A stretch of DNA of 64,000 nucleotides from Verrucomicrobiota bacterium (GTDB lineage: Bacteria > Verrucomicrobiota > Verrucomicrobiia > Verrucomicrobiales > Verrucomicrobiaceae). The notes under the pieces are model-generated. The model saw only the letters and a list, made by a program, of their open reading frames with translations, ran no database searches and was not told the origin of the DNA. The stretch covers positions 1-64,000 of the forward strand of contig JAPLUN010000409.1 of the NCBI GenBank assembly GCA_026397715.1, in the 5' to 3' direction. Positions 8,370 through 37,930 of the stretch are shown here, in pieces; within the stretch, counting starts at the first letter, position 1; every line of letters begins with the position of its first letter. The translations under genes were made by a program, and so were the position numbers.

Positions 8370-8450
8370 TCAGCGGGCAGAACGGCGGCGACGGAAGGCG
8401 AGGCCCAGAAGTCCAAACAGAAGCAGCAGCACGCGGGTAGGCTCTGGAAC
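8370..8450 (-). other. PEP-CTERM sorting signal coding region
   Basis: VPEP, hydrophobic helix RVLLLLFGLLGLAF, then RRRRSAR at the C-terminus. Confidence 0.88.
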
Positions 8451-11400
8451 TACAACAAGGATACCGTAGGTGGTGAAGGCGCTGGTATCCCAGGCGAGGC
8501 CAGAACTGGTGAGGCTCAGATCAGGCAGATAGAAATCCCCCGTTGCTCCACCTGTGGTGAAGGTAGCAGGATTGTTAAATCCATTGTTCACGATGGAGGT
8601 CCAATCCAGCAGGTTGAACACCTCGCCGTAGGTGAAGCTTGGAGTTCCATTGGCAAACACATGCACCATGCTGCCGCTGCTCAGCGTCAATGTGCCAGCG
8701 ACATTGATGTAGTCGTGGTTTCCAGAAGCTGGAGCAATGTTGATCTCTGTAGCAACCGCTGTGTTGGCAGCTGGCGGAGTCACATTGCCATTGTCGGTGA
8801 TCAGGTTCTGCACATTGCTATACCCGTTGGCAAAGCTGGTGTCGCTGCTGAGGTAATACTGGCCATTGGCGAAAACAAAGCTGGTTGGAGCCGCCACCGT
8901 TGGAGTCGTGATCCCCAGATTCAGCATGGAGCCGCTGCTCACCACGAGATCGTGGCCGATCGTGAGAGAGCCGTTGTTGGCGCCCAAGCTGCCACCCGGC
9001 GCTAGGATGCCCACCGCGCCGGCACCGCCAACCGTCACCGTGCCAGAGGCACTGCCAAGCGTAACGTTGTCATTTGCCGAAAGCACTGCGGCATTTTGAC
9101 CCGTGAAGGTGTTGGTCGCACCACTGTAAGTGCCGAGGGTGCCCGAATTCTTGCTCACCGTGACGGCGGTGGTGTTCGTCTGGCTGCCTGCGAAGTGCAC
9201 CTGTCCGTTGCTCACTGTGGTGGCGCCGGTGTAGGTGTTGGCACCCGAGAGGATCCAGGTGCCCGTGCCGTTCTTGGCAAGGGAGGTGGCACCGGAACCG
9301 TTGTCACCCACCGGAGCGGCCAGAGTGTTGGCGTCGGTGTTCGTGCCGGTCAGGGTCAGCGTGCGGGTGGTGTTGGTGCCGTTGAGGGCTGGTGCCGAGG
9401 TGCTGGTGAGGTTCAGCGCGCTACCGGTTCCGCCGGAAGCGTCAATCGTGCCACCGGCGGTGCCAATGGTGAAGGAACGATCCGTGGTGCCGTCGGTCGC
9501 GCCGGTGCCGGTGTATTTCAGCGTAGAGCCGAGGATTTGCAGGTTGCCCGCAGCGTTGGTGGAAGCACCGATGCTACTGTTGCTGCCACCGTCGGCGAGT
9601 TTCTTCACTTCGAGCGTGCCGCTGTTCGAGATAACTGTGCGGCCGGTGTAACTATTGCTGGTGTCGCTCAGCGTGGTCGTACCGCCTCCGGCTTGGACGA
9701 AGTCACCGGTACCGCTGATGTTGTTGGCGATATTGTAGTCGTTGCTGCGGGAGATGACCAGTTGAGTGCCATTATTGATAACAGCGCCGCTGCCGAGCGT
9801 GCCGGTGGTGGTGCCATTGCCAATCTGCAATGCACCCGTGCTGATGGTGGTCGATCCGTAGCTGTTAGTGCCGGTCAAGGTCAGATCCCCGGTGCCATTC
9901 TTGGTCAGACCAAAGGCACCGCTGACATTTCCACTAACAAGGAGGCCACCGGAGGAGTTGTTCGTCCAGGTCTGGGTGGCACCCAGGGCGACGTTGGCGC
10001 TAATGGAGTGGGAAGCGGAGGTGGAATTGACGGTGATGCCACCGCTGCCGACCGTCAGCGTGTTGGTGCCGGTGCCATTGGCAATGGTAACATTGGTGGT
10101 GTCGGCCGCAGTGCCGCTGCCCGTAAAGGTCAAACTGGCGATGCTGAAGCTGCCATCCAGCGTGGTGGTGAAGTTAGCCGCAGCACCGGAGTTAGCCGTC
10201 ATGAAGACATTGGTCGTGCCTCCACCAGGAATCTGGTTGGCGTCGATCGTGCCAGCAGCATCCGTGGACCAGTTGGTGTTGTTACCAGCGCCAATGCTGC
10301 TCCAGCTGCCCGTGCCGCCGGAACCCTGGTCGCCCGTCCAGTAAGCATTGAGTGCAAACGGGTTGGTAAACACGCTCAACTGCAACTTGGTCGTGGTGGC
10401 GAGGAAATTGGCCGCCGTAGAGGCATTGCCAGTGTCCCACACGAGACCATAGCTGCGGCCACCACCGATCTGCACCAAGTTGCCACCGGCACCGAAGGTA
10501 ATGTTGCCTGTTCCTGCACCAAAGGTGAAGTCACCCGAAGCCGTCGAATTGGCACCGAAGGTAACCAGGTCATACGTACCATTGGCCAGTATCGTTCCGG
10601 CGATGGTGTTCAGGCCCACAATCGTTCCACCTGCATTCAGAAGCAGCCTCTGGTTCACCGCGATGAGGTCCTTGGTATTGGCCGTCGCATTGATGTCCAT
10701 GAGCAGGGATGCCGCCGTAGAAGCCCCGCCCAAGGTCAAGATGGTGGCACCCGCCGTGGCGCTATTCAGCGTCAAAGTATTAATCGTGCCGTCCTGCAGG
10801 CTCAGGATGCCGGCTGTGGCGGTGCTATTCACGGTGACGCTGGCGGAACCAGAAGTGCCGATGGTCCGGTTGCCAGTGATCTTCAGGGTGGCCGCATCGG
10901 CCACGGTAATGGCAGTGCCAGCCAACGAACCGCCAGCCCCGAGCTCAAGAGTACCCGAAGTCACGGTCGTCGTCCCGGTATAGTTGCTCGCTCCTGTCAG
11001 AGTGGTCACGCTGGAAACACCGCCAGCCTGCTGGAGGGAGCCGGTGCCGGTGATGACGTTGCTGATGGTCAGAGCATTGCTGCGATTGACCACCAAGGCA
11101 CCGTTGTTGGTAATCGTTCCGGTACCTGTGCCGAGATCCCCTGTGGTGCTGCCATTGCCGATCTGCAGCGTTCCAGCGCTGATCGTGTTTGTGCCCGAGT
11201 AGGTGTTGGCTGCTGTGAACACCAGCTTGCCCGCGCCAGTCTTGGTGATGCTGTCGCCCGCACTGCCAGATCCGTTAGAAATCGTGGCGTTGACAGTCAG
11301 GTCGTCGGTTGCGGTGCTGTCCCCCACGGCGAAGGTGCGATTGGCCGCGCCAGGAAGCCCCGTTCCCACGGCGGTGCCGCCCAAGGAAACAAAACCAGAA

Positions 11401-14400
11401 CCCGAGATCGTGGAGCCATTCGGATTGTTCGTGGCATCGTAGGTGACGTTGCCCAGCAAGGTCAGAGTGCCTGAGGTGCCTGTCTGAACGTTGTTGGTGC
11501 TCGTGCTGGTCGCACCCGCTCCGCCAAAGGTAAGCGAAGCAATGCTATTGGTGAAATTAGCCAGATTAAGCAGTCCGGTTTCACCAGCAGTCGTGTTGTT
11601 GATGGTCACGGCTGAGGAAGACGGCAGAGCATTGCTGGCCGCTAGGGTGATCGTGCCACGGTTGATCGTGGTGGAGCCACTATAGCTGTTCGGGCCGCCC
11701 AGGGTCAATGTGCCGCTGCCCACCTTCACCAAGTTCAAGGTGGATCCCACGTTGTTAGTGATCGCACCACCAAAGCCTGTGCTGCTCGAGTCTCCAACGG
11801 TGAAGGTTGCAGTTCCTGTGGTAGCTGAGTTGGTGATAAGACCGCCGGTGGTGCTGCTGTCGCCAGCCAGTGACGCAACCGTGGTGCTGTTGGCATTCAG
11901 ATCCAACGTACCGCCGGACAGCACCGAAAGCGCCGTGGCTGTGGGGAGCGCACCCAAGTTGCCCAGCTTGAGAAGACCACCGCTGACTGTGGTGGCACCG
12001 ACATAACTGTTGAAGCTGTTGGCCACGGCCGCGCCACCGAAGGTGATGTTCTGGTTCACCACCGAGGCGGTGAGCGCGTTGTTCAGGGTGATGATGCCCG
12101 TGGCTGTGTCAACATTCGTGATGGTCGTGGAGGCGGCAATACCCACGCCCGTCACCGTCGATCCAACGGACAGCGTGGCAGCCTGCCCAGTGCTCACCGT
12201 CAGGGTGGTGGCACCTGCCGCCCCGGCAGTGGACGCGTAGGTCTGGGTCGTGCCAAAAGCAAAGTTACCCGCGTTCGTGGTGGCCACGGCAGCTTGCGAA
12301 AGGGTGACAGCACTGCCTGCTACAGACGACACCGTCGTCCCCGGAGCAATACCTGTTCCATGAACAGTCATGCCAGCGACAACACCTGCGGCGGCAGTGG
12401 CGCTCAAAGTGAGCGTCGTTGTGCCAGCAACGGTTGCATTTGTGGCAGCACCAGTCGCGCTAAGCGCACCAGTCGTCGTCGGTGTCAAAGTCAACGTACC
12501 GTCGCCGACTTTCAACAGACCGCCCGCAGTTCCGGTCACAATGCCACCCATCGTGGCGGTCACCTGCGGGCTGGTCACCGTGAGGGTGCGCGCCGCGCCG
12601 CCCAGGTTCACCGTTCCGTTCAGCGTCAGGTTGTGCGTGCTGGCCGTTCCACCAAAAGTGAAGTTGCCATTCACCACCACGTTGTTCGAGAAGGTGCGGG
12701 CGGTGTTGTCAGACTGGAGGGTGGTGCCCCCTGCAATGGTGAGTATGCCTGTGCCCAACGGACCGCTGGTGATGCCGGCACCTGCGGTGCTCGTCGTGCT
12801 GGCAGCACCAATGATGAGCGTGCCCGCGTTGAGCTGCACACCGCCTGCGAAGGTGCTCGCACCGCTCAGCACCAAGGAACTGGTGCCTGCTTTGACAAGG
12901 CCTGCCGCCGTGGTGCTCATGGTGTTCTGCACCACACCGCTCATGATCATTCCCATGGGGGAACTGCCGTTGACCGTGATGGTCTTCGTCACGCCATTGA
13001 GTTCAAGGATGGAGGCAATCGTTGGCGTGAAGCCATAGTTGTCGTTGGTCGTGGTAATAGCACCGTTGATCACGATCGTGCCACCGGTGACGGTCGGAGT
13101 GGCCGAGCCGCCACTGTTGTTGAAGGTGAGCGACTGGAAGGTGTTCTGATTGACCAGGGTCAGGACTCCACCGCCGTTGATGGTGATGTTGCTAGTGGGC
13201 GCGATGGAGCCGTTGTTTGTGATCTGGGTGGCATTGGCATTGTTCAGGATCAGGTTGCCGGGAACCTGGATACCACCGAGCTGGGAAGCCGCGTTGCTGA
13301 TCTGGAGCGTGCCTTGGTTGACCACCGTGTCACCCGTGTAGGTATTGGAGAAGTAAGGCAGCGGTGCAGTGAAGGTGAGCGAAGTTGCACCAGAGCCAGT
13401 GGCGGCCGCAGACAAGACAAAGGACGTGCCGTTGGTGATGGAGGCGATGGTCGTACCGTTGGGAATGTTGGTGCCGAAGACAGGCATGCCGACCGCCAGG
13501 CCCGTAGTGCTGCCCGCGGTCACCGCCGTGGTTCCGGCGAGGGTGAAGGTGGACGTGGTGCTCGGCACGTAGTTGGCAATCGGCGCTCCGAAGATCAGAT
13601 TGTTCGAGGTAGCCGAGGCAGTGGCATTAGCCGCTGCGCCAGTACTCGCACTGACAAGCGTCACGGTGTTGCCACTGACGGATCCAACGACCGTATTTTG
13701 CGGAATGCCGACCCCCTGCACATACATGCCAGCCACGATGCCCGCCGCCTCAGCCGCTGAGGCCATGGTGATGGTGTTGCTAGCACTGGTGACGGAGGCG
13801 ATGGCCGTGCGGCCGACCGCGGGAGACACACCATAGTAGGCATTGGCGGTACCAGTGGCGGAAGCGTTGGCAGAAAGGGTGATGGTGGTACCATCCACGA
13901 TGCTCGCGACCGTCGTGCCGGACGGAACGCCAGGGCCTTGCACTGGCTGACCGACGAACATGCCCAGGCTGCTCAGGACCTTAACCGTGCTGCTGCCGCT
14001 GGTGGTGGCAGAAATGATGGAACGCTCGGCAGGTGCGGTAGCAGACAGCGAAGTCACGGCCGCCGTGGTATTCGCTGAGATGGTGACCGTGGCACCGGCT
14101 CCGGTACCGGAGAGGGCGGTAATGTAGGAATTGGCCGGGATACCCGTGCCAGTGACCAACTGACCAACCACGAGGCCGGTGGCATTCGTCAGCGACAACG
14201 TATTGGTGCCGCTGGTATTGGACACGGCGATCGTGCCTTGAGTCGCAATAGGAGCGAAGAGCAGTGTCGCGGAGCCCGTGCCGGTCGCATTAGCGGACAG
14301 GGTAACGGTATTGCCAGACACACTGATCACAGTGGTGTTTGCCGCCAGAGTGCCGGTGCTGCCGACAGCCGTGGAGACCACCATACCTGGATACACCACC

Positions 14401-15815
14401 GTCCCGGCCGGAACGGTGACTGTGGCCGAGCCGCTGGTCACATTTAGGTTACCAAGCACCTCGGTCGTCGGCGCAGTGAAGGTCGTATCTGCAGCAGTCG
14501 CGGTGCCAGTCGTCACATTCTGGCTGACGGTGAGGGTCGTGCCACTGTTGATCTGGGTGATGATGGAAGAGGCTGGGATGCCCACGACGCCCGCGTTCAA
14601 ACCCATGCCGACTACAAGGCCAGCAACACCCGTCTGACCGGTGCTGTTGGCACCGGCAGTGGTGACCAAGGAGCTGCCTGTCGTCGAGCTGGCAAAGCTG
14701 AGACGCGGCTCAACACGGATGGCGACCGTCGCGCCACCCGACTTCACGAAGTTCACCGCACCGCCGCCGTTGTTTTCCAGGCGGCTCAGGAACTGGGTGG
14801 TCCCGTTGTTGGCGAATGCGTAAATGGTTGAGTTCGCCGTGGTGCCGGCGGTCATGCGGCCATTCAGGAAGTTCACCTGCTGGCCGTTGTTGTTGGTAAG
14901 AATACCACCGGTTCCGATGGTCAGCAGCTGGTCCATGGAACGGAACAACACACTTGCTGCTGCGGACGCGGCAGTATTGCGCACCGCCCAAGAGTTGATC
15001 GTGCGAGCGGTGATGTCCGACACGCCGCCACCGGTGTTGATGTTATCTGCTGCAACACCAGCCGTGATGGCATTGGCGGAATAGCCTCCAAACGGCGTCT
15101 GGCCGTTGGTGCTGAAGCCCAGGTTGCCGACCCCGAAAGCGCCGGTGATTGGATCCACCGTTGAGCGGTAGCTGGCGAAGTCTGCGCCGTTGATCACCGC
15201 CCAACCGCCGATGATGCCATTGACGAGCGTTGGCGCGGAGGTGATGACGATCTGCGGGTTGGCTCCCTGGTTGAGCAGGGCCGTGTTGGATGCATTGACG
15301 ATAGTGCTCACCGGGCCGCCAAGGTTGCCGCCGGCACTCGTGAAGTTGATGGTGGACTGCACCGCACTGCCACGGGTGAGGCTGGCGAGGGTCAGCACCG
15401 AGCTTGATCCAGAGGTGGCGCCACTGGCGAAGATGGTATTGTTGATGACGTTGGCACCACCGTTGATGGTGATCGCGCCGAGGGTCTGGGTATCTGAAAT
15501 GTCGCCGGCTAGGAAGGACAGGGTGCCGCCTGTCATGCTGAAGGCACCCGCGCCGATGCGGGAGGAACTGACGATGCCGATGCCACTGTTGTCGAGTGTC
15601 ACCTGACCAAATGGCAGGCTGATTGTGCCAGTGGTGGTCATGGTGGCGCTATCACGGAGAACCACAGAGCCGCCACGCACAGTGAAGCTGCCTGAGCCGA
15701 GGTTGCTGGCACTCACAAGAGTGAGGCTGTTGGAACCCTGTTTTTCAAAGTTGATGTTTCCACCGGAGATAGCTCCCGCGAAAGTGGTGGCTGTGTTGTC
15801 CTGAACCACCAGCAA
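8370..15815 (-). CDS. C-terminal part of a giant autotransporter-associated beta-strand repeat protein with PEP-CTERM anchor
   Basis: 2481 aa; repeated SGANTYTGATTVSNGxL / TGTxSYxGxTTxxxGxLxxG modules (PF12951/TIGR02601-type); no signal peptide; ends VPEPTRVLLLLFGLLGLAFRRRRSAR. Appears to be the 3' part of the 15865..36423 gene, displaced by +1 frame. Confidence 0.9.
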   Translation of the reverse strand: MLVVQDNTATTFAGAISGGNINFEKQGSNSLTLVSASNLGSGSFTVRGGSVVLRDSATMTTTGTISLPFGQVTLDNSGIGIVSSSRIGAGAFSMTGGTLSFLAGDISDTQTLGAITINGGANVINNTIFASGATSGSSSVLTLASLTRGSAVQSTINFTSAGGNLGGPVSTIVNASNTALLNQGANPQIVITSAPTLVNGIIGGWAVINGADFASYRSTVDPITGAFGVGNLGFSTNGQTPFGGYSANAITAGVAADNINTGGGVSDITARTINSWAVRNTAASAAASVLFRSMDQLLTIGTGGILTNNNGQQVNFLNGRMTAGTTANSTIYAFANNGTTQFLSRLENNGGGAVNFVKSGGATVAIRVEPRLSFASSTTGSSLVTTAGANSTGQTGVAGLVVGMGLNAGVVGIPASSIITQINSGTTLTVSQNVTTGTATAADTTFTAPTTEVLGNLNVTSGSATVTVPAGTVVYPGMVVSTAVGSTGTLAANTTVISVSGNTVTLSANATGTGSATLLFAPIATQGTIAVSNTSGTNTLSLTNATGLVVGQLVTGTGIPANSYITALSGTGAGATVTISANTTAAVTSLSATAPAERSIISATTSGSSTVKVLSSLGMFVGQPVQGPGVPSGTTVASIVDGTTITLSANASATGTANAYYGVSPAVGRTAIASVTSASNTITMASAAEAAGIVAGMYVQGVGIPQNTVVGSVSGNTVTLVSASTGAAANATASATSNNLIFGAPIANYVPSTTSTFTLAGTTAVTAGSTTGLAVGMPVFGTNIPNGTTIASITNGTSFVLSAAATGSGATSLTFTAPLPYFSNTYTGDTVVNQGTLQISNAASQLGGIQVPGNLILNNANATQITNNGSIAPTSNITINGGGVLTLVNQNTFQSLTFNNSGGSATPTVTGGTIVINGAITTTNDNYGFTPTIASILELNGVTKTITVNGSSPMGMIMSGVVQNTMSTTAAGLVKAGTSSLVLSGASTFAGGVQLNAGTLIIGAASTTSTAGAGITSGPLGTGILTIAGGTTLQSDNTARTFSNNVVVNGNFTFGGTASTHNLTLNGTVNLGGAARTLTVTSPQVTATMGGIVTGTAGGLLKVGDGTLTLTPTTTGALSATGAATNATVAGTTTLTLSATAAAGVVAGMTVHGTGIAPGTTVSSVAGSAVTLSQAAVATTNAGNFAFGTTQTYASTAGAAGATTLTVSTGQAATLSVGSTVTGVGIAASTTITNVDTATGIITLNNALTASVVNQNITFGGAAVANSFNSYVGATTVSGGLLKLGNLGALPTATALSVLSGGTLDLNANSTTVASLAGDSSTTGGLITNSATTGTATFTVGDSSSTGFGGAITNNVGSTLNLVKVGSGTLTLGGPNSYSGSTTINRGTITLAASNALPSSSAVTINNTTAGETGLLNLANFTNSIASLTFGGAGATSTSTNNVQTGTSGTLTLLGNVTYDATNNPNGSTISGSGFVSLGGTAVGTGLPGAANRTFAVGDSTATDDLTVNATISNGSGSAGDSITKTGAGKLVFTAANTYSGTNTISAGTLQIGNGSTTGDLGTGTGTITNNGALVVNRSNALTISNVITGTGSLQQAGGVSSVTTLTGASNYTGTTTVTSGTLELGAGGSLAGTAITVADAATLKITGNRTIGTSGSASVTVNSTATAGILSLQDGTINTLTLNSATAGATILTLGGASTAASLLMDINATANTKDLIAVNQRLLLNAGGTIVGLNTIAGTILANGTYDLVTFGANSTASGDFTFGAGTGNITFGAGGNLVQIGGGRSYGLVWDTGNASTAANFLATTTKLQLSVFTNPFALNAYWTGDQGSGGTGSWSSIGAGNNTNWSTDAAGTIDANQIPGGGTTNVFMTANSGAAANFTTTLDGSFSIASLTFTGSGTAADTTNVTIANGTGTNTLTVGSGGITVNSTSASHSISANVALGATQTWTNNSSGGLLVSGNVSGAFGLTKNGTGDLTLTGTNSYGSTTISTGALQIGNGTTTGTLGSGAVINNGTQLVISRSNDYNIANNISGTGDFVQAGGGTTTLSDTSNSYTGRTVISNSGTLEVKKLADGGSNSSIGASTNAAGNLQILGSTLKYTGTGATDGTTDRSFTIGTAGGTIDASGGTGSALNLTSTSAPALNGTNTTRTLTLTGTNTDANTLAAPVGDNGSGATSLAKNGTGTWILSGANTYTGATTVSNGQVHFAGSQTNTTAVTVSKNSGTLGTYSGATNTFTGQNAAVLSANDNVTLGSASGTVTVGGAGAVGILAPGGSLGANNGSLTIGHDLVVSSGSMLNLGITTPTVAAPTSFVFANGQYYLSSDTSFANGYSNVQNLITDNGNVTPPAANTAVATEINIAPASGNHDYINVAGTLTLSSGSMVHVFANGTPSFTYGEVFNLLDWTSIVNNGFNNPATFTTGGATGDFYLPDLSLTSSGLAWDTSAFTTYGILVVVPEPTRVLLLLFGLLGLAFRRRRSAR
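10180..10370 (-). other. Internal passenger-start-like module inside the giant protein
   Basis: AYWTGDQGSGGTGSWSSIGAGNNTNWSTDAAGTIDANQIPGGG resembles the mature N-terminus of the upstream ORF (LYWDQDSTALGNVTTGGGLGGTGTWDITSPNWWNGVATDAAW). Confidence 0.6.
13356..14690 (-). repeat. Six tandem ~70-aa 'VGM-V-GxGIPxxTxVxSxxGxTxTLS' modules in the giant protein
   Basis: Translated copies such as GLVVGQLVTGTGIPANSYITALSGTGAGATVTISANT, GMFVGQPVQGPGVPSGTTVASIVDGTTITLSANA, GIVAGMYVQGVGIPQNTVVGSVSGNTVTLVSA, GLAVGMPVFGTNIPNGTTIASITNGTSFVLSAA. Confidence 0.8.
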
Positions 15816-15864
15816 CGTGGCAGTGGTGCCGCTGCTGTTGGTGACGGTGCCAGCACCACCAGCA

Positions 15865-18800
15865 TTAGATGTTTAAAGTGGTGTTGGTCAGCCTGCGGAT
15901 GGCCTGGGTGTTGCCATTGAGGTCGAACGTGCCGCTGTTGACGTTCAGGTCAGCAACCGTCGCGACGGTTGCCGTCGGGATCACAAGCAGCGGATTCGTG
16001 CCAAGGCCGGTGCCGAGCTGCAATGTGCCATTATTCACAGTAGTAGCGCCTGTGTTGTAGCTTCTGCCGCTCAAGATTGCTGTGCCTGCGTCGGATTTCA
16101 CGATCCCGCCCGTGCCGAGGATGGTGGAGCCCAAGCTGAGGGTGGTGCCGGAACCGAGCACATGGAAGTGCATTGGGTTGGCACCGGAGATGATGGAGCC
16201 GCCGGAGAAGCCGGTGTTGCCAGAGTTGGCGATCACGCCGCCACTGGTGATGGTGAGCGTGTTGAGGGCGCCGTTGAGGCCATAGAACTGGCCGCTCGGA
16301 CTGTTGGTGGAAGCCAGGTTGCCGCCACTGAAGTAGCCAACACCACCGCCATTATTAAGCGTGAGGCTCTGGAATGTCGTGGCCTGCTGAATGGCGTTCG
16401 ACACGGTGGTGACAAAGTTGGCGGCGGCGGTGGCTCCAAAAGTGATGCGTTGGGTCTGCAGGCCACCTGTTGTGGCTGCACTCAAGGTGATGGTATTCCC
16501 TGCCACGCTGCTGATCACCGAGTTCGCTGCAATGCCGGTGCCACTGACAGCCATACCCGCAAACAGATTGGAAGCATCCTGAACCTGCAGTGTGGTGGAG
16601 TTGTTCATCGACCCGTTCAGCACCACTCCTGCACCGGTGGTTGACGTGAGAAGACTGCGGTACTCGGCAGAGGTCAGCAGACGGAAGCCGTTCGTGTCAT
16701 GGGTAACGAATCCGCCCGTGGTGTTGGTGGAATCGATGCCGATGATGTCAGGACGGATACCATTCGTGACTGAGCCGCTCGTTCCAGGGTTGGTACCAAC
16801 GAGAGTAGGTGTCGTGGCAAAGACTGTGACTCGGTTGGCTCCGGCAGCACCGCCGCCCAAGGTGCCGGTCGCACCCGCATTGAGCACCAAGTTGCCAGTG
16901 TTTGCAGCACTTTGTGCGGAGAGCGTGCCCAGGTTGATACGGGTCTGGTTGCCCGTGTTCTGCGTCAGGTTCCACTGGGTCTGACCAGCTAGGTTGGTGA
17001 CGGTGTTCAAATTCTCGACCACGGCGGAACTGCTGCTGCCCTGATAGTTCAGGACACCACCACGGTTGTTGAAAACACGGTCGGCGGTCGTTGTCTGGAT
17101 CGAAGTGGTGCCACCGAGGCGGTCACTGATGGCACCGGTGCCGTTCAAGGTGAGGACACCACCCCTGCCGAGGTTGGTGGTCACAAAGCCCAACTTACCG
17201 GTGGCCTGGTCCATGAGGACAGCATCACCGAGGATGGTCAGCGTGCCCAGCAAGGCACCTGAGCTGTCGCCTGTGAGCGTCCAGTCTCCCGAACCAACCT
17301 TCGTGACTGACAGCAGGCCGGAGGTGTAGTCACTGAGGAAAGTGCCCGCGAAGGTGCCAGAGGTGCTGTCACCCGTGACCAACGTGGCCCCAGTGCTGAC
17401 GTTGAAGTTCTTGATGAAAGTGCCTGTCGCGCCGCTGATGGTGCCAACCACAATGTTGCTGTTGCCACGCATGTCGAGAATGGTCCCGGTATTGGCAAGA
17501 TTGATGGCAGTGGAGACATAATTGGAGGCCGCCGTGCCAGTGCTTGGGCCGAGCACCAGAGTTCCGGCATTGACATTGACCATGAGTGTCTGGCTGCTGA
17601 AGCCGCCCAACTGAAGAACGCCTGCGCCTTCCTTATTGATGGTGCCGCTGGTAAGGATATTCGAGTTGATGGCGAGACCAATCTGCTCATTCGACTGACC
17701 GGTGGTGCCTTGGACTGCAGTCAGTCCGCCAGCCACCTGGGCCACGGTGATGGTTGCCGTCGAGGGCAGCGCGAGGCGTCCGCTGAGCATGGGCACGATG
17801 CGTACATCATCCAATGCGCTGGCGCTGATTGTATCAACCGTGTTGGTCAGAGTCAGAGTGCCGATGCCACTGATGACAAAGGTGCTGCCAGGACCGTTCG
17901 TCGCCGTCACGAATCCACCTTGCGACTGGAACGCGAGCTTGGAAACCGTTTCGTTGAAACCATTGAGATCCCAGGCTGCACCACCGCGAACTGTGACTGT
18001 GGCAGTGTCAGCGATCTGCTGGCTGCCGAGATTGCGTGTGGTGGCATTACCAACGCCAGCAGTGTCACCACCGCTCTGAGTGCCGCCTGTGACCACCAGG
18101 CTACCGGTGATCGCATTGCCAGAACCGGTCTGATTGTTGAGGAGAAGGAGTACGCCGTTGCTATAAGCGGTGCCGGTATAGGTGTTGGCGTTGGCGAGGT
18201 TGATGGTCGGGGTGTTGGCAACCTGGGCCATGGCGTCCATCACCAGATCAAAGGTGCCGGCGCCGTTGGCACCGATGTCGGAGTTGATGGTCAGGGTATT
18301 GGCACCGTTGTGGAGGAAGAGTTCTGAGCCGCTGGTGGTCAGGCGGCCACGAACCGCCGTAGAGCCGATCGTGCGTGCGGCATTGTCAGTGCCGGAGAGA
18401 AGGCCCCCAGAGGCGAGGGTGAGCGTGTCGGTGCCTGCAGCGAAGTTCACCGTGGAAGCCGCACCGTTCAGGGTGAGGGAGTTGATGATCTGGCCTCCGT
18501 TGATCACACTTTGAGTACCGCTAAAGCGAACGTTGCTGGTGCTGGTGGCCGCTGCCAGCGTGGTTGTTTGTTCGATGCCGTTCAACTGGCGGATGCCAGT
18601 GGCGGGGTCGTATTTGGCAAACTCGGCGTTTACAGCAGCGAGGGTGCCGTCATTGGTGACCACGGTGGCCCAGCCGCCGATGATATTGCTGGTGTTGGCG
18701 GTCAGGCCTGCGGCGGTGGCGGTGACGAACGGATTGTTGCCCAGCACACCGCCACCAGAAGTGAAGGTGAGGGTGGAGCCAGTGGAGCGGCTGAAGGTAC

Positions 18801-21800
18801 CGCCAAGATTAAGGGTGGCCTGGCCGAGACCGCTGTTGCCGACGTTGGCACGGATGACGGCATTGCCGCCCGTGACAGAGAGGTTGCCCAAGGTGACAGA
18901 CCCGACAGTCCCGCTGCGGCTGATGTACTCGAAGGCACCGCCATCGAGGTTGACCGCCACGGCACTGCTGATGCGGTTGCTCATGGCCTGGATGCCGGAG
19001 TCATCCCAGCGCAGGAGGCTGTTGCGAATGCTGATGGTGTCACCAGCAGCCATGCCGGACAGACGGCCCTGATCCACAAGCGTGGTGATGCTGCCCATGA
19101 AGGTGGCGTTGCCGGTAAACTGGTTGTTGTCGCGCAGGTTGAGCTGCGTGCCGCCGGTCTTGATGAAATTCAGGTTGCCATTGATCTGGCCAGTCCAGTC
19201 ACGAGCCGTACCCACGTTTGTGATGAACGTCGCAAGCGATCCCGCGTTGTTGATAATGCCGCCGCTGCCCGGGGTGCTGTTGCGGCTGAGGAGGTCCCCG
19301 AAAATCTGATTGTTGCCGTTCAACTCGAGCAGACCACCAGTCATGACGAGGGCATCGTTGTTGGCGGTGGTAGTGTTGGCGTTGATGAGCGGAGCCGTGG
19401 CAAAGCGGTAGAAGATTGCGTTGTCCGGAGCACCGGCGGCGATTTCCACCGTGCCGAGGTTGATGATGGTGGCACCGGTGTAGCTGTTGCCGGTGGTCGA
19501 GTTGAGCAGCACCTTGCCGTCGCCGCTCTTGAAGAAGCCGCCTGTCGTCGGGGCCACACGTCCGCCGAGCGCCACATCCAACGTCAGCGTCGTGCTGCTG
19601 CCCATGGTGTGAATGGTCCAGGCAGTGGTGGCCGCGGTGGTGGTCAGTGTACCTGCGCCGGTAATGGACGAACTGGTCTTGGCCAGGATACCGCCTGACT
19701 CGACCTGCAGGTTGCGGAACGCGTTCACCGTGAACGGCCCGGCGTTCTCGAAGGTGATGGAGTTGACGCTGTTGGAGGTGACGCCCGTGGCTGCCGCACC
19801 GGAGTTCAAAGCTCCCGTGACACGCATGTTAGCATTTGCCGTGAACGCCGTGGCCATTTCAGTGCTGGTGTTCAGTGGGCGAAGGCCATTAGTGGCACCA
19901 TCGTTAACCAGGAACTGGGTCGTGGCGGTCGTTCCATTGCTCGTCGACGAGGTGTCGGCGATGGCCCACGGGAGGATCTGTTTGTTGGTGGTACCATTGG
20001 CGCCGGCTTGGCCGAGAAAGGTCTGGAAATTGGTCGGCGCCGTGGTGGTGGCGAGGATGATGTTGGTGTTGGTGGCACCCGTGCCTTGGCCAAGAGCATC
20101 ACCACGAATGAACAAGGTTGCACCGTTGGCGCGGGAGAGCGTGCCGGTGCCAGCGGTCGTGATGCGAAGATTCGCGCCATTGTTGTCCAGCGAGATGAGG
20201 TTGTACCCGACGTTGATCGCAATCTGCGCGTCCGTTGCCAGCGCTTCGTTCACCGCCGTGCTGCTGTTGCCAAGTATTTCCAGCAGACCACCGTTCAGAG
20301 TGAGCCCACGTGTGCCGAGACGGGCGCTGCTGGCAGTGCCCGTGTTGTCGAGTGACAGCTTCACATCCGGGGTGATGCCGGTGTAGGTGGCGTTGTTGAG
20401 GGTGGTGGCAGTGGTGCCGAATATGCCGAGCGTTCCACTGCCGCTAAGCGTGATGCTGCCCTGGTTGATTGTGGTGGTTCCCGTTGTTGCGGTGCCGTAA
20501 GTATTGGCAGCGGTCAAAGTGAGGTTGTTGGTGCCGACCTTGGTGAGGGTGAAAGCCCCGCTGACCACGCCACTCAGAGTGATGTCACCAGAAGTCACAC
20601 CACTCAGAGCGTTGACGCGGCTGCCACCAATGCTGGTGGCAGCTGACATCACCACCGGACCGGCAAGGCTGGCTGCAGTCGAGGATGAGTTGATCAACGC
20701 AGCCAGAGAACTGACTGTGCCGACGCCTGAAAGGGTGCCGCTGCCGCCGAAGCCAGCACCAGCGATGGTGATCGGCTCAGCACCGATGGTCATGCCGTTG
20801 AGATCAAGCACTGCGCCGGTGGAGAGGGTAGTGCCGTTCGTCGTGTCGCTCAAGGCACCGGCATCCCCCAATTTCAAGGTGCCTAGATTGACAGCAAGGG
20901 TAGTGAAGCTGTTGCCGGAGCCCGAGAGGGTCAGGTTATTGGTGCCTGTCTTGGTCAGGGCGAAGGCACCGGTGATGTTGCTGCTGAAGGTCAAATCTCC
21001 GTAGCCGCCGATCGAGGAAGCGCTACCGAGGGTGATGGCACCGGATAGCGTTGCTGCCGTGGCGCTGCTGTTCCAGATGGCACCCTTGAAGTTGCCAGAG
21101 AGCGGAGCGGTGCCAGTGCCGTTGATGGTCAGCGCCTTGCTGATGCTCAAACCATTCACGTCCAACATGCCGTTGGTGGCCCCCACCAAGTTAGTGATGC
21201 TTCCAGAGGCCGTAGCGCCCTGCGAAATGGTGATCTGCGAGGCACTGTCCACGCTGACAATATAGGCACCGTTCGGGATACCGGTGCCAGTCACCGCCAT
21301 GCCCTGCTGCATGCTCGCGGTGGAAGTGATGCCCGTGATCACGGAAGAACCAGCGGCAGTCGTGGCCGCAGCCTGGGCGGTCAGGGTAGTTCCAGACACC
21401 GTAACGAGGCCAGACGGCAGCGCCCCAACGTGATTGAGCATGACTGTGCCGTCCTGGATGGCAAGGTCGCCGGTGAAGGTGCCGGCAGTGGCGTTGTTTC
21501 CACCGAGGATGAGGGTGCCTTGGCCGGCCTTGATCAGCGCGCCACTGGCCCCCGTGCCGGTGACCAGACCCGTACCGCTTTGGGTAATGGTGCCGATGAG
21601 GTTCAACGTGCCAGCACTGGCAGCAGTGCCCACATTCGTGGTTGCGATGATCGCGCCCGTGCCGATGGAGATCAGGCCGTCCGCGCCGAACCAGCCGGTG
21701 CCGAAACTGCCAGAGGCACCATTGGTGACATTCAGGATGGAGCTGTTGCCCAGCACCATGGAGAAGGTGCCTGCGCCTTGAGTGCCCGCTGTGTCGATTT

Positions 21801-24800
21801 GGTTGGCAGCCTGGGGAGCGACCACCGCACCGAACTGGGTACCAAAGGAGTCGAGCGTGGCCGTGGTGCCGTTGCCCAAATAGTAGGCATTGTTGATGAT
21901 GGCAGCACCATTGTAGCCGTTCGCAGCAGTGGGAGCTGCGAGGGTGCCGAAGAGATTGCTGGAGGCGATGGACTGGAAGCTGTTCCCGGTGTCGGCACCG
22001 GAGTAGAACAGGCGGAAGCCGCCGGAGCTGCCGGCATTAGTGACCTTGTAAACAATGGAGTGATAGCCGCTGGTGAGGTTCAAGGTGACGTTGGCAAGGT
22101 CGCTGAGGCCGTGGCCGAAGGTGCCGTCACTGGCGACAGCGACGCCATCGAGGTAAAGGGCGAGACCGTCGTCGGAACCAGAACGGAAGGTGTAATTACC
22201 CCCTGTCGTAATGTTCACGAAGCCGGAATAGGCGGCGGCACCATTGGTGAAGGTGGCAGCGGTGGCGGCCGGACGATAGGCGATGGTGCCGTCAGAAAGC
22301 TGGTTGATGAACATGTTCGAACCCGAGAAGCCCACTCCAGAGAATGCCTGGGAGACCGTGGCGGTCGGTGCCGCAGCAAGCTGGGCAAAGGCACCGTTGA
22401 GGCCGCCGCTGCTGTAGCCGTAGCTGGTCATGTTCGCACCCGTGAGCACAGCACTGTTGATCTGAATGGGATAAGCGCCATTGAGGACAATCGGTGCGCC
22501 AGAACTGAGGGTGGTCGTGGTGCCGATCTGAACTTGGTCGGTAAAGAGCAGGTTCCCCTGGCCGACATTGACAGGCTTGTCTCCGGACCAACCGAAGACG
22601 ACCACTGTGGAACCGGAGGCGACGTTGATCATGGGCGCGGCACCACCCACCGTGTCACCGCTGATGTTCACCAGGCGCAGAGTGTAGCCGTTGGCGCTCG
22701 AGACGTTGAGGATCTGGCCGCCATTGAGTTGCAGGTCGTTGATGGCGATGGTGTTGCCCGTGTTGGCACCGTTGTTGCCGACGTTGAGGCTGGCCGCAGC
22801 AAGCGAGCCGTTGATGACAATGTTGTTGGCGTAAGAGATGACACCATTGTTGGCCGTTCCGTTGTTCTGAAGGGAGAGCAGACCTCCGTTGCCGATGGTG
22901 GCAAGGGTGCCGGAGAAGACAGGGGCCGTGCTATTGTCGTTGAGGCCGGCGAGGGTGAGCGTGCCCGCGTTGACCGTGACACCACCCTTGAAGGTGTTGT
23001 TACTGCCCAGAAGCAACGTGCCAAGACCTTCCTTGGTGATTCCGTAGCCATTGCCGCCGTCATCCAGAAGCATGTTCAGGGCCAGCACCGCCTGGGGTGC
23101 ATCCACTGTCACCGTCGTATTGCCCAGCAATGTGGTCGTGGTGTTATTGCCCTGGATGGTCAGGTTGTTGGTACCCTTGAGCGTGATCTGCGTGCCGCTG
23201 AGCACCAGAGCATTGCTCAAAGTATTCGCGCCGGTGGAGGTCAGGTAGGTGCCCGCCGCACCGATGGTGAGAGCGCCGGTGCCAATCGGGCCGTTAGCGA
23301 AGGCGGAGACGATACCCGTAGTGCCATCACGCGTGGTCACGTTCGTGCTGCCACCGACGGCGAGACCGCCCGCCTGCACATTCACGCCGCCGCCGAAGAG
23401 GCTTGCGCCGGAAAGTTGGAGGAGGCCATTGCCGGTTTTGTTCATGCCTGCGCCCGAGACTGCGGAATCGCCGATTGGAGCACTGATTGCCAGCGTCGGG
23501 GTGACGTTGGCAACGGTGGTGTTGCCGTTCACTGTGACGGGTGCAACGTTGAACGTGCGGTTCGCGCCGTTGAGATCCAAGGCGATGCCGCCGGTGCCGG
23601 CGCCAGAGATGGTGGAGACGGTGCCAACGTTAGAGGAGATGGCGGTGATGCCGCCGGTCAACTTCAGGATGCCGGTGCCAGTGGTCACGCTCGGCGCAGT
23701 GGTACCGCCGTTGTTCTCGAATGCCAGACCCGCGAGGGTCTGGTTGTTGTTGTTGAGTTGGAGAATGGCAAACTGGCCACGCAGGATGGGCGTGATGCCG
23801 AAGTTGATCTGGTTGGCCTGAAGGAGGCGGACGTTGCCGCCGTTAATAATAAGCGAATCAGCGACGGTCGTTGCAAGAGGAATCGCGGAATTGCCATTGG
23901 CACCAGTCGCCCCGGTCACGTTCAGATCCATGATGCCGTTGGTCTGTGAACCGTTCGGAGTGTTGACGACCGTGCCACCTGTGTAGGTATTCCCGCCGTT
24001 CCTGATTTCGAGTGTGCTGGCGTTGTAGCCCGTATAAGTGAGGCGCAACGGGTCGGCACCATTGTCCACAATGCGTGAGTTGATGATGTTTGCGGCGGCC
24101 GAAGTAAGCACGAGATTGAGGGTGTCAGCCACCGAGTCCGGCGTCCCACCCGCAGTCAGGCGACCACTGTCCACGGCGGAACCGATGGTGGTGCTAAAGG
24201 CTCCTGACTTGACCAACAAACCAGCGGTCAGATTGAGGATGTCGGTGCTGTTTGCATAAGTGAAGGTCTGAGCGGCTCCTGGATTCAAGGCCAGCGCGTT
24301 CACGTTTAGCCCGCCGGTCGGCAGATTGATCGCTGTAGTGGCCACCTTGTAGTTGCCGGTGGCGTTGTTGGCGGCAGGAAGGACCGTGCCGTCATAGCCC
24401 TGGTAGCCCGGCTGGTTCAGTGCCGCGAAACCACCACTTAGGTTGCCTGCAGTCGGAGCCACGTAGCTGACCAGATCGGCACCACCAGAGTTCATCCACG
24501 GCACGATGCCATTGACAAGAAGGCTGGCTCCGTTCGTCGCCGTCATGCGGGCGGCAGTGCCCATCTGGCCGCTCATGCTGTTGAGCAGCAACATGGCACC
24601 GTTACTGTTCGTGATGTTGCCAAGGGAAAGGACAGCCGAACGAACCACGCCCACAGCACCATTGTTCATCACAATATTGTTTCCGCCTTCGGCAATCAGG
24701 ATATCCCCGAGTGTTTCGGTCGAGTTGATCGAATCGCGACCTGTGTAGGTCAGGACACCTCCACGCATGCTGATCGTTGCGGCATTGTTGACGCGGTCTG

Positions 24801-27800
24801 CATTCGACATCGTACCGGCTTCCGTGATGGTCAGGCTTCCGCCATTGAGAGCGATGCCTGAGGTGGCGGAAAGTCTGCCTTCATCCTGCAGGGTGAGTGT
24901 GCCGCCAGTGATGATCGTGGCACCCGTGTAAGTGTTGTTGCTGAAGAAGACGGTGCCGGTGGAACCAGCCTTGTTAAAGACCAATCCCGTGCCCTGGATG
25001 CTGCCACCCCAGCCTGCTGTGGTGCCCTGTGTATCCGCCGAAATGAGAAGATTGGTGCCGGTAATCACGCCACCAGTGCCGGCAAAGGCCGTACGATTGG
25101 GTGAGGTGATTTGGCCAACCATTTGGGCATTGGCTCCGAGGTTGAGCGTTGCTCCCGGACCTACGGCAAGGTTCTGGCCAGCCGTGCCACCCTGTGCTCC
25201 CTGCCAGAGGGTGTTCTCACCACCGGCGAGGGTGACGGTGCCACCATTGATGGTGAAGTAACTGGTGCTTGTGTTGAAGAATTGCTTGGTATTGAACGTG
25301 AGGTTTCCGTTCAGGCCCTTGGTCATGTTGACCGTGCCAGCAATGGCCGCATTCACAGTCAGATCCGCGCCGGTATCCACCAGAAGCCCACCTTCCACCG
25401 CGCCAAAGTTGATGACGGGAGCGGAATTCAAGCCAACCAAGGTGGCGTTACCGATGGTCTGACCGGCCGCTGTCGAAAGCAGATTCCCTGAAGTCAGGGT
25501 GAGCTGATTGCCACCTGAGGTGGCGAAGGTCACGTCCGTGTTGGCACCGTCGATTCGGAGGGCGTTTAGCGTGCGTCCGTTCAGACCCGGATTGCTCAGC
25601 GCGGCAGTGTCGCCGGTGACGTTGTAGGTCGTGGTGGCGCTGAAGACACCGGCCACGTTGGAGGCATTGATGCCGTAAGCGGTGCCGCCGTTGACGTTGG
25701 TAAAGGCCAGATCGCCTCCTGTGCCCGTGCCGTTGGAGACGGTGTAAGCAGAGAAAGCGGTGACAGCTGCAGCCGCAGCAGACTGGGTGGCAAAGTTCGT
25801 GCCTGCGCCGTCTTTGATGACAGTGCGGGCGATGATGCCTGCGGTCTGCGGAGCCAAGGCGGTAAAGATCAACTGGTTCGTCGTACCGTTGAAAGTCTGG
25901 GCGCTATTGAGGCTGAGCACCGAACCGCCGCCAATAGCCGCGAGGCTGGCAAAGGTCAGAGTGGCGTTGGAGCCACCACCGTTGTTCAGCGTCAGGGTGT
26001 TGGCACCCCAGGAGGAGGTCAATGCACCGAAGGCCTGCGCGGAAACCGCAGCGCCGTTGGCGGTGTAGGTCAGGCTGCCGTTGGTGAGACCCACGGCGCG
26101 CGTACCGGCAATGCGAAGCAGCGGACCGCCCGTGGTGTCGTCGATGTTCAACAATGCGTTGTTGTTGACGGTGATGTTGCCAGTTGCACCGGTGAGCTGG
26201 CCTGCGCCGCTGATGTTAAACGTCCCCTGCGTCACAGTGATTGCCGCGGTACTACTGGCGGTCCCGGTGAGGTTCAAGGTGCCAGTGCCAATCTTGGAAA
26301 AGGCCGCTGTGTTGGGTGTGTAACTGGCAAGATTGATGATGCCAGTGCCAACTGCGTTAAATGTCGGACTGTTGGTGTTGGCCATGGCCCCGGCGGTGAT
26401 GTTCAGGGTGGCACCGCTGGCTGCGCCGAGAATGTATCCGACCGCGGACGTATTGGTAATGCTCCCGCTGAGAGTGTTGTTACCGCTGGCCGAAAACACT
26501 GCCCCGGTGTTATTGATACCGAAGCCGTTGCCACCGCCGGTAGCCAAGTTAATGGGGCTTGCAAGATTGATGTTGTTTGTCAACCAGAGCGCACCACCGC
26601 CTTGTGATGTGTTCGTGCCTGGGGCAGCGACGTTGATCTGACCGGATCCGAGCGCGTTGACATTGTCGATCTGAACGACACCCTGGGCGATGGTCGTCGT
26701 GCCGGTGCGGGTGCTGTTGTTGGCAGTGATGATGAGCGTGCCAAAATCATTCTTCTGCAAGGCATTGGCGGCGGCACTAAAGGTGAAGGCAGTGTCGATA
26801 GTTGCGGTGGTATTTGCAGCGACATCAATACCAACGGTCGCTGCATTGAGGTTGATGGTGCGGCCCGTAAGGGTGTAGGTGGTGCCCCCTGCGAGACGCA
26901 GGCCCTGGGTGCCGGAGTTGGCGCTGAGACGGACGACGTTGGAGGCCTCTCCAAGGCCACTGTTGGCGTTCACAGAAAGAATGCCCGCTGTCACGTCGAT
27001 GATGGCACTGCTGCCACCGAAGGTGTTGACGCCAGTGAGCGCCAGGGTGCCCGCACCGGACTTGGTGAGCACGACGTTCGACGCACCCGTGGCACCACCG
27101 CTGACGATGCCGCTGAGGACGAGGCCGTCGTTGGTATTGGAGTTGTTGGCAGTGGCGACGTTGAAGACAGGTGTTGCTGCGATGGTCGACAGTGCAACGC
27201 CATCAGACAAGGCGAGCTGGTACTGGTTGGCGTTGTTGACCGTGAGGCCGCTGGCGAGGGAACTGAAAGAGGTAGGCGTGATGATTTTGTTGATCGCCTG
27301 ATTCCAGAGGACGGTCTGGCCTGCGCGACCGATGGAGATGGTCGGCGGCGACGCGGTCATGGTGATGGCTCCGACATTGATGACATCGTTCTGCACGTCA
27401 CCGTCACCGTCAGTGAGGAGGCCGAGGGTGCCGCCGTCGTTCAGGGAGATCGGGATTGCTCCGGCACCCGTCAGATTGATGATCAAGTTACCCAATCCGG
27501 TCTTGGTCACACTGGTGAGGGAGCCAGCGGTGGTGATAGGGCCAACGAAAGCCGCGGTGAGGTTGGGATTGTCCACGTTGACGGTGAGAGCGCCCGTCGG
27601 TGTGGTGATGGAACCATTGAGAGTGATGGTTCGGGTGGTGCCGGTTGTCGTGTTACGGAAGGTGGGGGTGCCGAGAAAGGTAATAGGGTTAGCCAAAGTA
27701 CGATCTGTATCATTGGTAAGCAGGGCAGTACCCGAAGCCATGGAGACAGATCCTGTGCCAGCAGGGCCACTCAGAATGGCGTTGGCATTGAGTCCCGTGC

Positions 27801-30800
27801 CAGCGGTAATAATGCTAGCAGCATTCGAACCCAGCATAAGGCCACCGCTGGTGCCACCAACTGTGGTCCCACCGGTGTAGGTGTTAGCACCGCTGAGCAG
27901 CAGGATGCCATCACCCGTCTTGCTGATAGACGATGGGCTAGCCCCATTGGCAATAATGGATGCGATGGTCAGCGTGGGCTGAACCGTGGTGTACGTAACG
28001 CCACCGACCGCGATGGGAGCAATGCTGAACGTATTTGCACCACTGGCCAGGGCCACTGTGCCGCCAGTGATGATGGCGGTGGTTGCGGCGTTGCTGGAGG
28101 TAGCGGTGATTGGGCTGGAACTGGAGAGGGTGAGGATGCCGCCGACGTTGATCGTGGGGGTGTTCACGTTACCGCCGATGTTGTTGAAGGTGACGCTGTT
28201 CAGCGTGTTGTTGCCCACCAGGGTCAGGGTGCCCTGGCCGTTGATGGTCACATTGCTGGTGGTGGCGATCTGGCCCGCGTTGGTGATCATCGCCACAGTG
28301 GAACCGCCGCCAGTCACCCCGCCGTTGATAGTGAGGTTGCCGGGGATGACGACCGCCCCGGCCGCGCCGTTCAGGTTGAGCGTACCCCGGTTCACGATGG
28401 TGCCGCCGCTGTAGGCGCTGGCGTTCCCCGTGTAGTCATTCGTGAGAGAGAGAATGCTCGCGCCGTCCTTGATCAAAGCGAGAGCCCCCTGAATGGCCGA
28501 GTTGATGGTAAGCGTGCCCTGGTTGTTGTAGGTGATCAACTCGCTGGTGCCGCTGGTGATGATCCCGCGCGTGCCCGTCGTGCCGATAGTGGTATTGTTT
28601 GCGTTGTCACTGCGGAGGATGCCGCCGAGTTCCAGATTCAACACATCCGAGGCGCCGGTGAAGAGAATGTCATTGGTGAAGGCACCGCCGATGCGCAGCA
28701 GCCCCGTTGTGGTCGTGCCGGACGGCAGGAGCGTCGAAGCTGCGGCGGTGGCATTGAGATTCGTGATGCTCCCGGAGGCAAACACGCCAGCGAGTGGAAC
28801 GGTATTTGCAGTGCCGATATTTTGGCTGTTGTAGCCGGTGTAACCTCCCTGACCCACGACGCCAACGCCCTGGCCGGCGTTATAAGCAGCATAGTCTGTC
28901 TGATTGGCCACGGCCCAGGCACCTAAGATGCCACCGCCGACAACCGCCGGAGCGGAGGCAAAGACGATGCGGGCGTTGTTGCCCTGCTGGCCCAGATTGG
29001 TGCCGGTGAAATTGATCGTGGAACCTGCCGTGCGGGTAAGGGCACCGAAGGTGAGATCGACTGAACTGAAGGCACTGCTTCCGGCTGTGGGTGTGGCAGT
29101 GATGGTGTTGGAACCCTGGGCAAGGGAGATGGCTCCAAACGTTTCTGTGGCAATTGTGCCCACGCGACCGGTGTAAGTGATGGTGCCGCCGCGCAGGGTG
29201 ATCGGCGCTGCGTCGTTGATGCGGTTGTTGTTCTGAGTCTGCAGGTTGGTATTGTTTGAGAGAGTCAGACCCGCGTAGTTGATATCGATGGCACTGGTAT
29301 TGGTGAGAGCGCCGTCATTTTCCAAGGTGATGGTCTGGCCAAGGATGCTCGTCGTCCCCGTGTAAGTCTGGGCCATGGCGAATGTCTGAGCATTCGCACC
29401 GGTTTTGACAAAATTGATCCCGCCAGTGATCTGACCACCGAAGCTACCGCCATCGCGCGTTACAAAGGTGGGCGTGCCCGTCGTGCTGGTCACCGTGCCA
29501 CTCGTGCCGGGAAGTCCAGAGCCATAGCTGTTCAGAGCCCCCACATACTGGGTGTTGCCATTCAGATCGAGCGTGGTGCCCACATCTAGACTCAGGGTGC
29601 CTGGGGTGGCACTGCCGGCGGCGAAGAGGGTATTCATTCCCCCATTAAGCCTCACCGTTCCTCCCGCGATGTTCGTCGTGGTGTTATAGAACTGGGCAGC
29701 ATTGAGGTTCAACTGGCCCGCACCGGTCTTTTGAATGGTCTGTCCGACCAGGGCTCCATTAAGATCCAAAGTGGTGCCCGAATCTGTCTGGAGGAAAAGG
29801 GTCTGGCCACCGGTGATCTGGGCTGCGGTGATGGCGTTGTTTCCACCGGTGTTGAGAATATTGCCCGCTGTCAGAGTGAGGGTTCGCCCTGCCGTGCCGA
29901 CGGTGAGACCGGTGCCGGTGATCTTCAGCGCATTGATTGTGCGGCTTGCTGTCAGACCCGTGCTGGCATTCACACTCATGGTGGCCGTGGCCGGAGCGGT
30001 ATTGATGCTCCCGGTATTGTAACCGGTGAAGGCCTGGAGACCGTTGGCATTGGGGTTGGTACCGTCGTGATTGTAACTGACAAAATCACCCGCGATCATC
30101 ACCTTGGACACAATGCCGCTGGTTGCAGGCAAAATCCCCAAGCCCGTAGAGGTGGTGAAGAAGATCTGGTTGCTGGTGCCGAGTCCCGTGACACCGCTGA
30201 TGTCAAGAGCGGCTGGACTCCCGGTGAAGGTGACCGAGGCAAAGGTGAGGCTGTTCGTGCCCACGCCAGACATGTTGATGCTGCTAGGCCCCGTCACAGT
30301 CAGAGCGCCAGCGACTTCCGCTGTGGTGTTACCGATCAGGGAGAGCGTGCCGCCCACCATCGAGATCGCGCCTGTATCAAAAAGGCGGTTACTGTTATTG
30401 TTGACACTGTTATCCAACGTCAGGGTACCAGCGTTGAGGGTGAAGGTTCCAGCAGTCCAAGCTCCATTGGGACCACTCAAGGTGACAGCCCCACGATTGA
30501 CGGTGAGAGCGCCGGTGGCGGTGTTTGCTCCAGTGGAGGTGAAAGTGCCAGTGCCCGAATAGGTCAGTGCATTGGCTCCGGTGCCTGCCGCGTAGATGCC
30601 GTTGAGAGTGGTAGTGCCCGAACCGAGAACGGTCAACGTCGAGGCTGCGGTATTGGAAATGTTCCCCGTGATGGTCAACGAACCGCCGGAGATGTTGTTG
30701 ACCAACAGACGGCTGGCCGCCAGCGAGAGCGCGGTTGCGGCGCTGAGTTCAATGCTGTTGCCGCCGCTGAAGGTGGCCGGGTCACCACCCAGGGTGATCG

Positions 30801-36918: not shown

Positions 36919-37779
36919 TCAAGGTTGCGGTTTAGGCGCAGGAAGCCGTGCAGCGTCCGGCTCAAAGTCGAGCACGTCCTGATGGGTGCGCAGAGCCTTG
37001 CGAGCCTTGTCAAAGAAAGAGGAGAGATCCTCGGCGTTCATCTGCTGCTTGTCGTCGATGTAAGCATGCAGCTTTTGGATCTGCGCGTCTGCATCCAGAT
37101 TCACCGAACCCATAACCTTCTGGGCCTGCTTGTAGGTGCCGGAGAACTTGCTCTGCGCCTGCTCAAAGGCCTCCTTGGCACCTTCCTGGCGCAGATATTC
37201 CTTCTCGGCATCGCGAAAATCGCTGCTGAAGAGACGCTTGAAGAAGCCGCCCTTCGGTTTGGTGATTTGCTTGGAGGCTTGGGCGTCAAAATAGTTCGCC
37301 AGCTCCTGAAACTCCTGCATCGGCTTCTGATACTGTTTTTTCAGGTAGCCGAGTCCGGTGGTGATGATCGAAAGCTTTTCCACTTCCGCCTTCGAAAGCG
37401 CCTGTCCGGCCTTCACCTTGTCTTCCAGCAGGTCAATGTACTGCAGCGTGGTCTTGTTGCCCTCAAAAATGTTTTCAAACTCCTTGGCCGCGATGGCCAG
37501 GCGCTTGCGCTCGCCCGTGCGCAGTTCATCGATCTTTTTCTCGTGTTCATCATTGATCGCAGTGATCATTTTCTGATGCTGCGCCGCCTGGGTGTCGAGC
37601 GTACGCTGGAATTCAGCCGCCTTCGCACTCATCTCTTCGGCATGCGTGGTTTTAATCTGCTCAAGCTCTGCATGCACGGCCGCAAGATCCGCGTGCGACT
37701 GAAACAGGAACCAGCCGAGCACTCCGGAAGCGAGAAAGCTCAGCACCAGCAGAGCGGTAAGATTTTTGATGGCGGTCAT
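36919..37779 (-). CDS. Membrane-anchored coiled-coil protein, function unknown
   Basis: Start refined to MTAIKNLTALLVLSFLASGVLGWFLFQSHADL (single TM), then a long charged helical region. Confidence 0.75.
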   Translation of the reverse strand: MTAIKNLTALLVLSFLASGVLGWFLFQSHADLAAVHAELEQIKTTHAEEMSAKAAEFQRTLDTQAAQHQKMITAINDEHEKKIDELRTGERKRLAIAAKEFENIFEGNKTTLQYIDLLEDKVKAGQALSKAEVEKLSIITTGLGYLKKQYQKPMQEFQELANYFDAQASKQITKPKGGFFKRLFSSDFRDAEKEYLRQEGAKEAFEQAQSKFSGTYKQAQKVMGSVNLDADAQIQKLHAYIDDKQQMNAEDLSSFFDKARKALRTHQDVLDFEPDAARLPAPKPQP

Positions 37780-37930
37780 GGTAGGGAAGAGTTGATGAGA
37801 CTGCGAGGCACGCAAGTCTATTCATTGGGACGCTTTTGCGCTGCAATACACGGCTCATGCACGCCTTCCGCCGCTTCATCAAGTTGGAATCCTGTTAGGG
37901 CTGGCTGATTTTCTGCGTCTTGTATCTTCG

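Follow-up and report, generated by a model that had tools for sequence, protein, structure and literature searches.

PMC5177795, citing Reva and Tummler 2008, describes giant genes in the Planctomycetes, the longest of which measures 36,239 bp. Gene-breaking indels and assembly errors are in turn known from metagenome assemblies (PMC8021871). The locus considered here touches on both subjects. It belongs to a freshwater verrucomicrobium and holds a giant gene for a surface protein, whose frame is broken by a single additional base in a draft assembly of 703 contigs that is 93% complete (G000 below). The window, i.e. the whole stretch of DNA that was analysed, comprises 64,000 nucleotides of one contig (JAPLUN010000409.1). 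With more than 20 kb and a probable surface protein as its product, the gene resembles the giant genes of the PVC superphylum presented in PMC5177795. A search for PATR or PEP-CTERM giants in Verrucomicrobia yielded no hits in the body of literature that it covered.

Layout of the split gene and its orthologues

On the minus strand, the sequence around the break reads ACC ACT TTA AAC ATC TAA, exactly as an earlier note on this DNA had reported, with the stop codon at 15867-15865. The features of the locus are as follows.

15865-36423, minus strand: upstream ORF of 6852 aa, with a signal-peptide-like N-terminus and PATR / TIGR02601 beta-strand repeats, ending at the premature TAA
15865-15867, minus strand: premature stop TAA, which includes the surplus base; at this place the relatives carry a Tyr codon, TAT or TAC (alignment)
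15871-15877, minus strand: TTTAAAC, the site favoured in the earlier note; a -1 slip is in phase here, the site is not conserved and the slip leads into the wrong frame (alignment and frame check)
8370-15863, minus strand: downstream piece in the +1 frame, 2497 codons with PATR repeats and the C-terminus; its orthologous counterpart is the final ~2,500 aa of the 11,053-codon ORF in the congener G001
8379-8450, minus strand: PEP-CTERM sorting signal in the region of PEPTRVLLLLFGLLGLAFRRRRSAR, C-terminal in the downstream piece (TIGR02595 match)

A profile search placed PATR repeats (PF12951, TIGR02601) above the curated cut-off in both pieces. The downstream piece additionally matches the PEP-CTERM profile TIGR02595 (E=3.5e-4, 21.2 bits against a cut-off of 16), and its C-terminus fits the PEP-CTERM layout of a motif followed by a hydrophobic stretch and a basic tail. 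For the exosortase family, three matches over the PF09721 cut-off are present in the genome. The N-terminus of the upstream ORF carries what looks by eye like a signal-peptide stretch (MLMLLRAYRQTVGLSMILLIFSWQIGQPLQA), and a C-terminal sorting signal is absent from this ORF. In the downstream piece, neither a signal peptide nor an evident ribosome-binding site is present, and no ATG lies close to the start; the first in-frame near-cognate start is the TTG at 15815. Since a signal-peptide-like start occurs only upstream and PEP-CTERM only downstream, the two pieces are, as judged from their sequences, opposite ends of a single exported protein with ~9,350 residues (elsewhere in the analysis roughly 9,300). 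Based on these signals, the intact protein would be exported through its N-terminal signal peptide, after which an exosortase would process or anchor the C-terminal PEP-CTERM.

Congeners were searched with the 400 residues that flank the junction on either side. In four of these (G001, G011, G004 and G008), both flanks match adjacent places inside one ORF, with single-frame lengths of 11,053, 8,523, 8,416 and 8,918 codons, respectively. The amino acid identity of the two flanks is 96% and 90% for G001, 78% and 79% for G011, 67% and 64% for G004, and 65% and 70% for G008, and no stops are present inside the matched region in any of the four. A chance ORF boundary at the break is thereby ruled out. 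At the level of sequence, this comparison settles the ancestral frame as the uninterrupted one. The junction comparison in relatives had been set beforehand in the earlier note, and the homologue is a single gene, not two, in every orthologue found. The main claim of that note, one repeat-protein gene broken by a +1 base, thus holds: the +1 frame runs for 2,497 codons from 15863 to 8370 and the orthologues are unbroken. The congeners contain several PATR giants of 8,000-14,700 codons each, whose matched parts are without internal stops.

Both halves of the gene are, from codon comparison with G001, under equal purifying selection, with a dN/dS of 0.249 for 2,496 downstream codons and of 0.241 for 3,150 upstream codons. 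No further stop lies inside the downstream piece. Together, these two observations argue that the break is very recent or absent from the organism, and an old pseudogene was rejected for the same reasons, the downstream half being undecayed.

The synonymous divergence along the gene is uneven. Relative to G001 contig C73, the dS of 500-codon blocks varies between 0.05 and 1.56 along the window's 8370-25323 (minus strand); that of seven neighbouring genes lies between 0.26 and 0.62. This unevenness suggests segment exchange by recombination within the giant gene. The centre of the gene (window ~25300-35350) is highly divergent from its counterpart in G001 (C73 ~57650-72710), and the G001 ORF is ~5.1 kb longer than the window's giant gene, apparently in frame. 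Near the gene, the ORFs at 36919-37815 and 39915-41342 (both minus strand) have no Pfam match, the latter being conserved in G001 with a dN/dS of 0.12.

Position of the surplus base

To position the surplus base, the junction was compared by BLASTN with orthologous and paralogous loci and aligned independently using MAFFT. Both methods place it at the A at 15865 or 15866, inside the stop codon, and find it in none of the four orthologues. The window's CTAATGC corresponds to CTATG, TTATG or CTACG in the orthologues, including a conserved Tyr codon. The surplus base relative to the relatives therefore turns this Tyr codon into TAA and shifts the frame. In the earlier note, the extra base had been assigned to the TTTAAA run a few bases upstream. 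This location had to be rejected as the lesion, since the alignment places the surplus base downstream of it and no aligned relative has TTTAAA: the counterpart is TTTCAAC in G001, the nearest relative, and GCTGAAC, CTTGAAC or GCTGAAT in the others. Around the junction, the residues of the relatives are L/F-N-I/T/V-Y-A/D. The TTA (Leu) before the break and the GCT (Ala) after it encode the majority residues in their respective frames. As a consequence of the wrong placement in TTTAAA, the bridging peptide proposed earlier (TNTTLTSNAGG..., with TTLTSNAGG at its core) is an artefact around the junction.

Explanations for the break

As for its cause, the earlier note had listed a sequencing indel, a real mutation, phase variation and recoding; the former two remain candidates and the latter two find no support in the site. 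Programmed recoding, in which a +1 or -2 frameshift near TTTAAAC/TAA would join both ORFs in the cell, has in its favour that T_TTA_AAC is a canonical -1 heptamer lying in phase shortly before the stop. However, a -1 slip at this heptamer does not reach the downstream frame but one with a stop after 52 codons, neither the heptamer nor the break is found in the relatives, a second in-phase TTTAAAC of the same ORF sits in unbroken sequence, and nine XXXYYYZ heptamers occur in phase in the upstream ORF. With AUC as the P-site codon before UAA, there is no good +1 re-pairing either. Other translational routes also miss the downstream frame: readthrough of the TAA yields 39 codons of unrelated sequence, and the ATG of a re-initiation at TAATG lies in the -1 frame, so both were rejected. 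Recoding is consequently considered exceedingly improbable. Hardly better placed is a phase-variation switch, by which slipped-strand changes at the site would toggle the full-length protein. Phase variation often affects large surface proteins, but no homopolymer of at least 4 and no short tandem repeat occurs within 100 nt of the break, no run of at least 6 is present anywhere in either ORF, and all four orthologues are in frame, none having a repeat at the site. Even taken together, recoding and phase variation are regarded as very unlikely. The mechanical ORF list, with its two long ORFs separated by a 49-nt gap, could also be read as two natural genes with separate working proteins. Such an arrangement is scarcely credible, as the downstream piece would lack a signal peptide, a nearby ATG and an evident ribosome-binding site and yet alone possess the sorting signal, and as the orthologues form single genes.

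The most probable cause of the split is an error in the assembly or consensus. The giant PATR-repeat / PEP-CTERM gene (~9,350 codons) would then be intact in the lineage, the surplus base having been introduced during assembly or consensus calling and presumably not being part of the organism's own DNA. The indel is private, being absent from all relatives compared, and other such lesions occur in the same assembly. In a sample of ~43,000 aligned codons against G001 (contigs C521, C447, C520 and C522), a DUF1501 gene that is whole in G001, G004, G008 and G011 is broken twice relative to G001, by a 115-bp loss at C447:25517 and by a 2-bp gain in its N-terminal region at C447:~26225. Compared with G001 as the single relative, ~110 bp are lost from RecD2 (C522:~12799) and ~104 bp from a MoxR-type ATPase (C522:~8896). 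Outside this sample, a second PATR giant (G000:C226 7650-7880) is frame-broken relative to G008, the only relative compared, by a loss of ~95 bp at ~7764. In the opposite direction, the ~43,000 codons gave no convincing break in G001. Candidate breaks at C447:8824, C447:37570, C447:15820-16872, C447:62176 and C521:64053 were left uncounted, as they fall at 5' ends of ORFs or are intergenic or unassignable. An assembly cause is favoured because frame-breaking indels hit several conserved genes, several of them near 100 bp, and the similar sizes of these ~100-bp losses suggest a systematic assembly artefact. The joints of the ~100-115 bp losses in DUF1501, RecD2 and MoxR show little or no homology. 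Against an assembly error, it must be said that the other lesions are mostly ~100-bp losses, with only one other gain of 1-2 bases, and that short-read errors seldom take the form of a 1-base gain outside a homopolymer. The main rival is a genuine frameshift mutation, recent and private to the sampled strain or to a variant in the population, which would truncate the protein and remove its PEP-CTERM anchor. The letters themselves support it, the undecayed downstream half fits a very recent event, and the loss of one among several PATR proteins could be tolerated; the lesions in the housekeeping genes RecD2 and MoxR point instead to an assembly-wide cause, and a private frameshift is held to be the less likely alternative. 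It is considerably less likely still that the surplus base is both real and polymorphic, with some cells making a truncated, unanchored protein of 6,852 residues without PEP-CTERM. If true, the polymorphic base would mean that a giant surface protein varies naturally between on and off in the absence of a repeat tract.

Comparison with known systems

With an assembly or consensus error as the preferred reading, the locus mainly calls for caution, giant genes being large targets for single-base assembly errors. One such error would make two ORFs out of a protein reaching from signal peptide to PEP-CTERM, one without an anchor and the other without an export signal. The comparison with congeners also shifts the lesion off a tempting but irrelevant slip site. 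The locus resembles the indel errors reported for draft and metagenome assemblies (PMC8021871, PMC12007338), as a private single-base indel splits a conserved gene; it differs from those cases in that the source of the error is inferred here.

Relative to the giant genes treated in PMC5177795, the present gene belongs to a relative within the Verrucomicrobiaceae and its size is unexceptional. The closest likeness is to the PATR, or autotransporter-associated beta-strand repeat, proteins with PEP-CTERM, which have the same repeats and the same C-terminal signal, in keeping with the exosortase-family matches in this genome. From these proteins the gene is set apart by the frame break in this assembly only, being otherwise an ordinary member.
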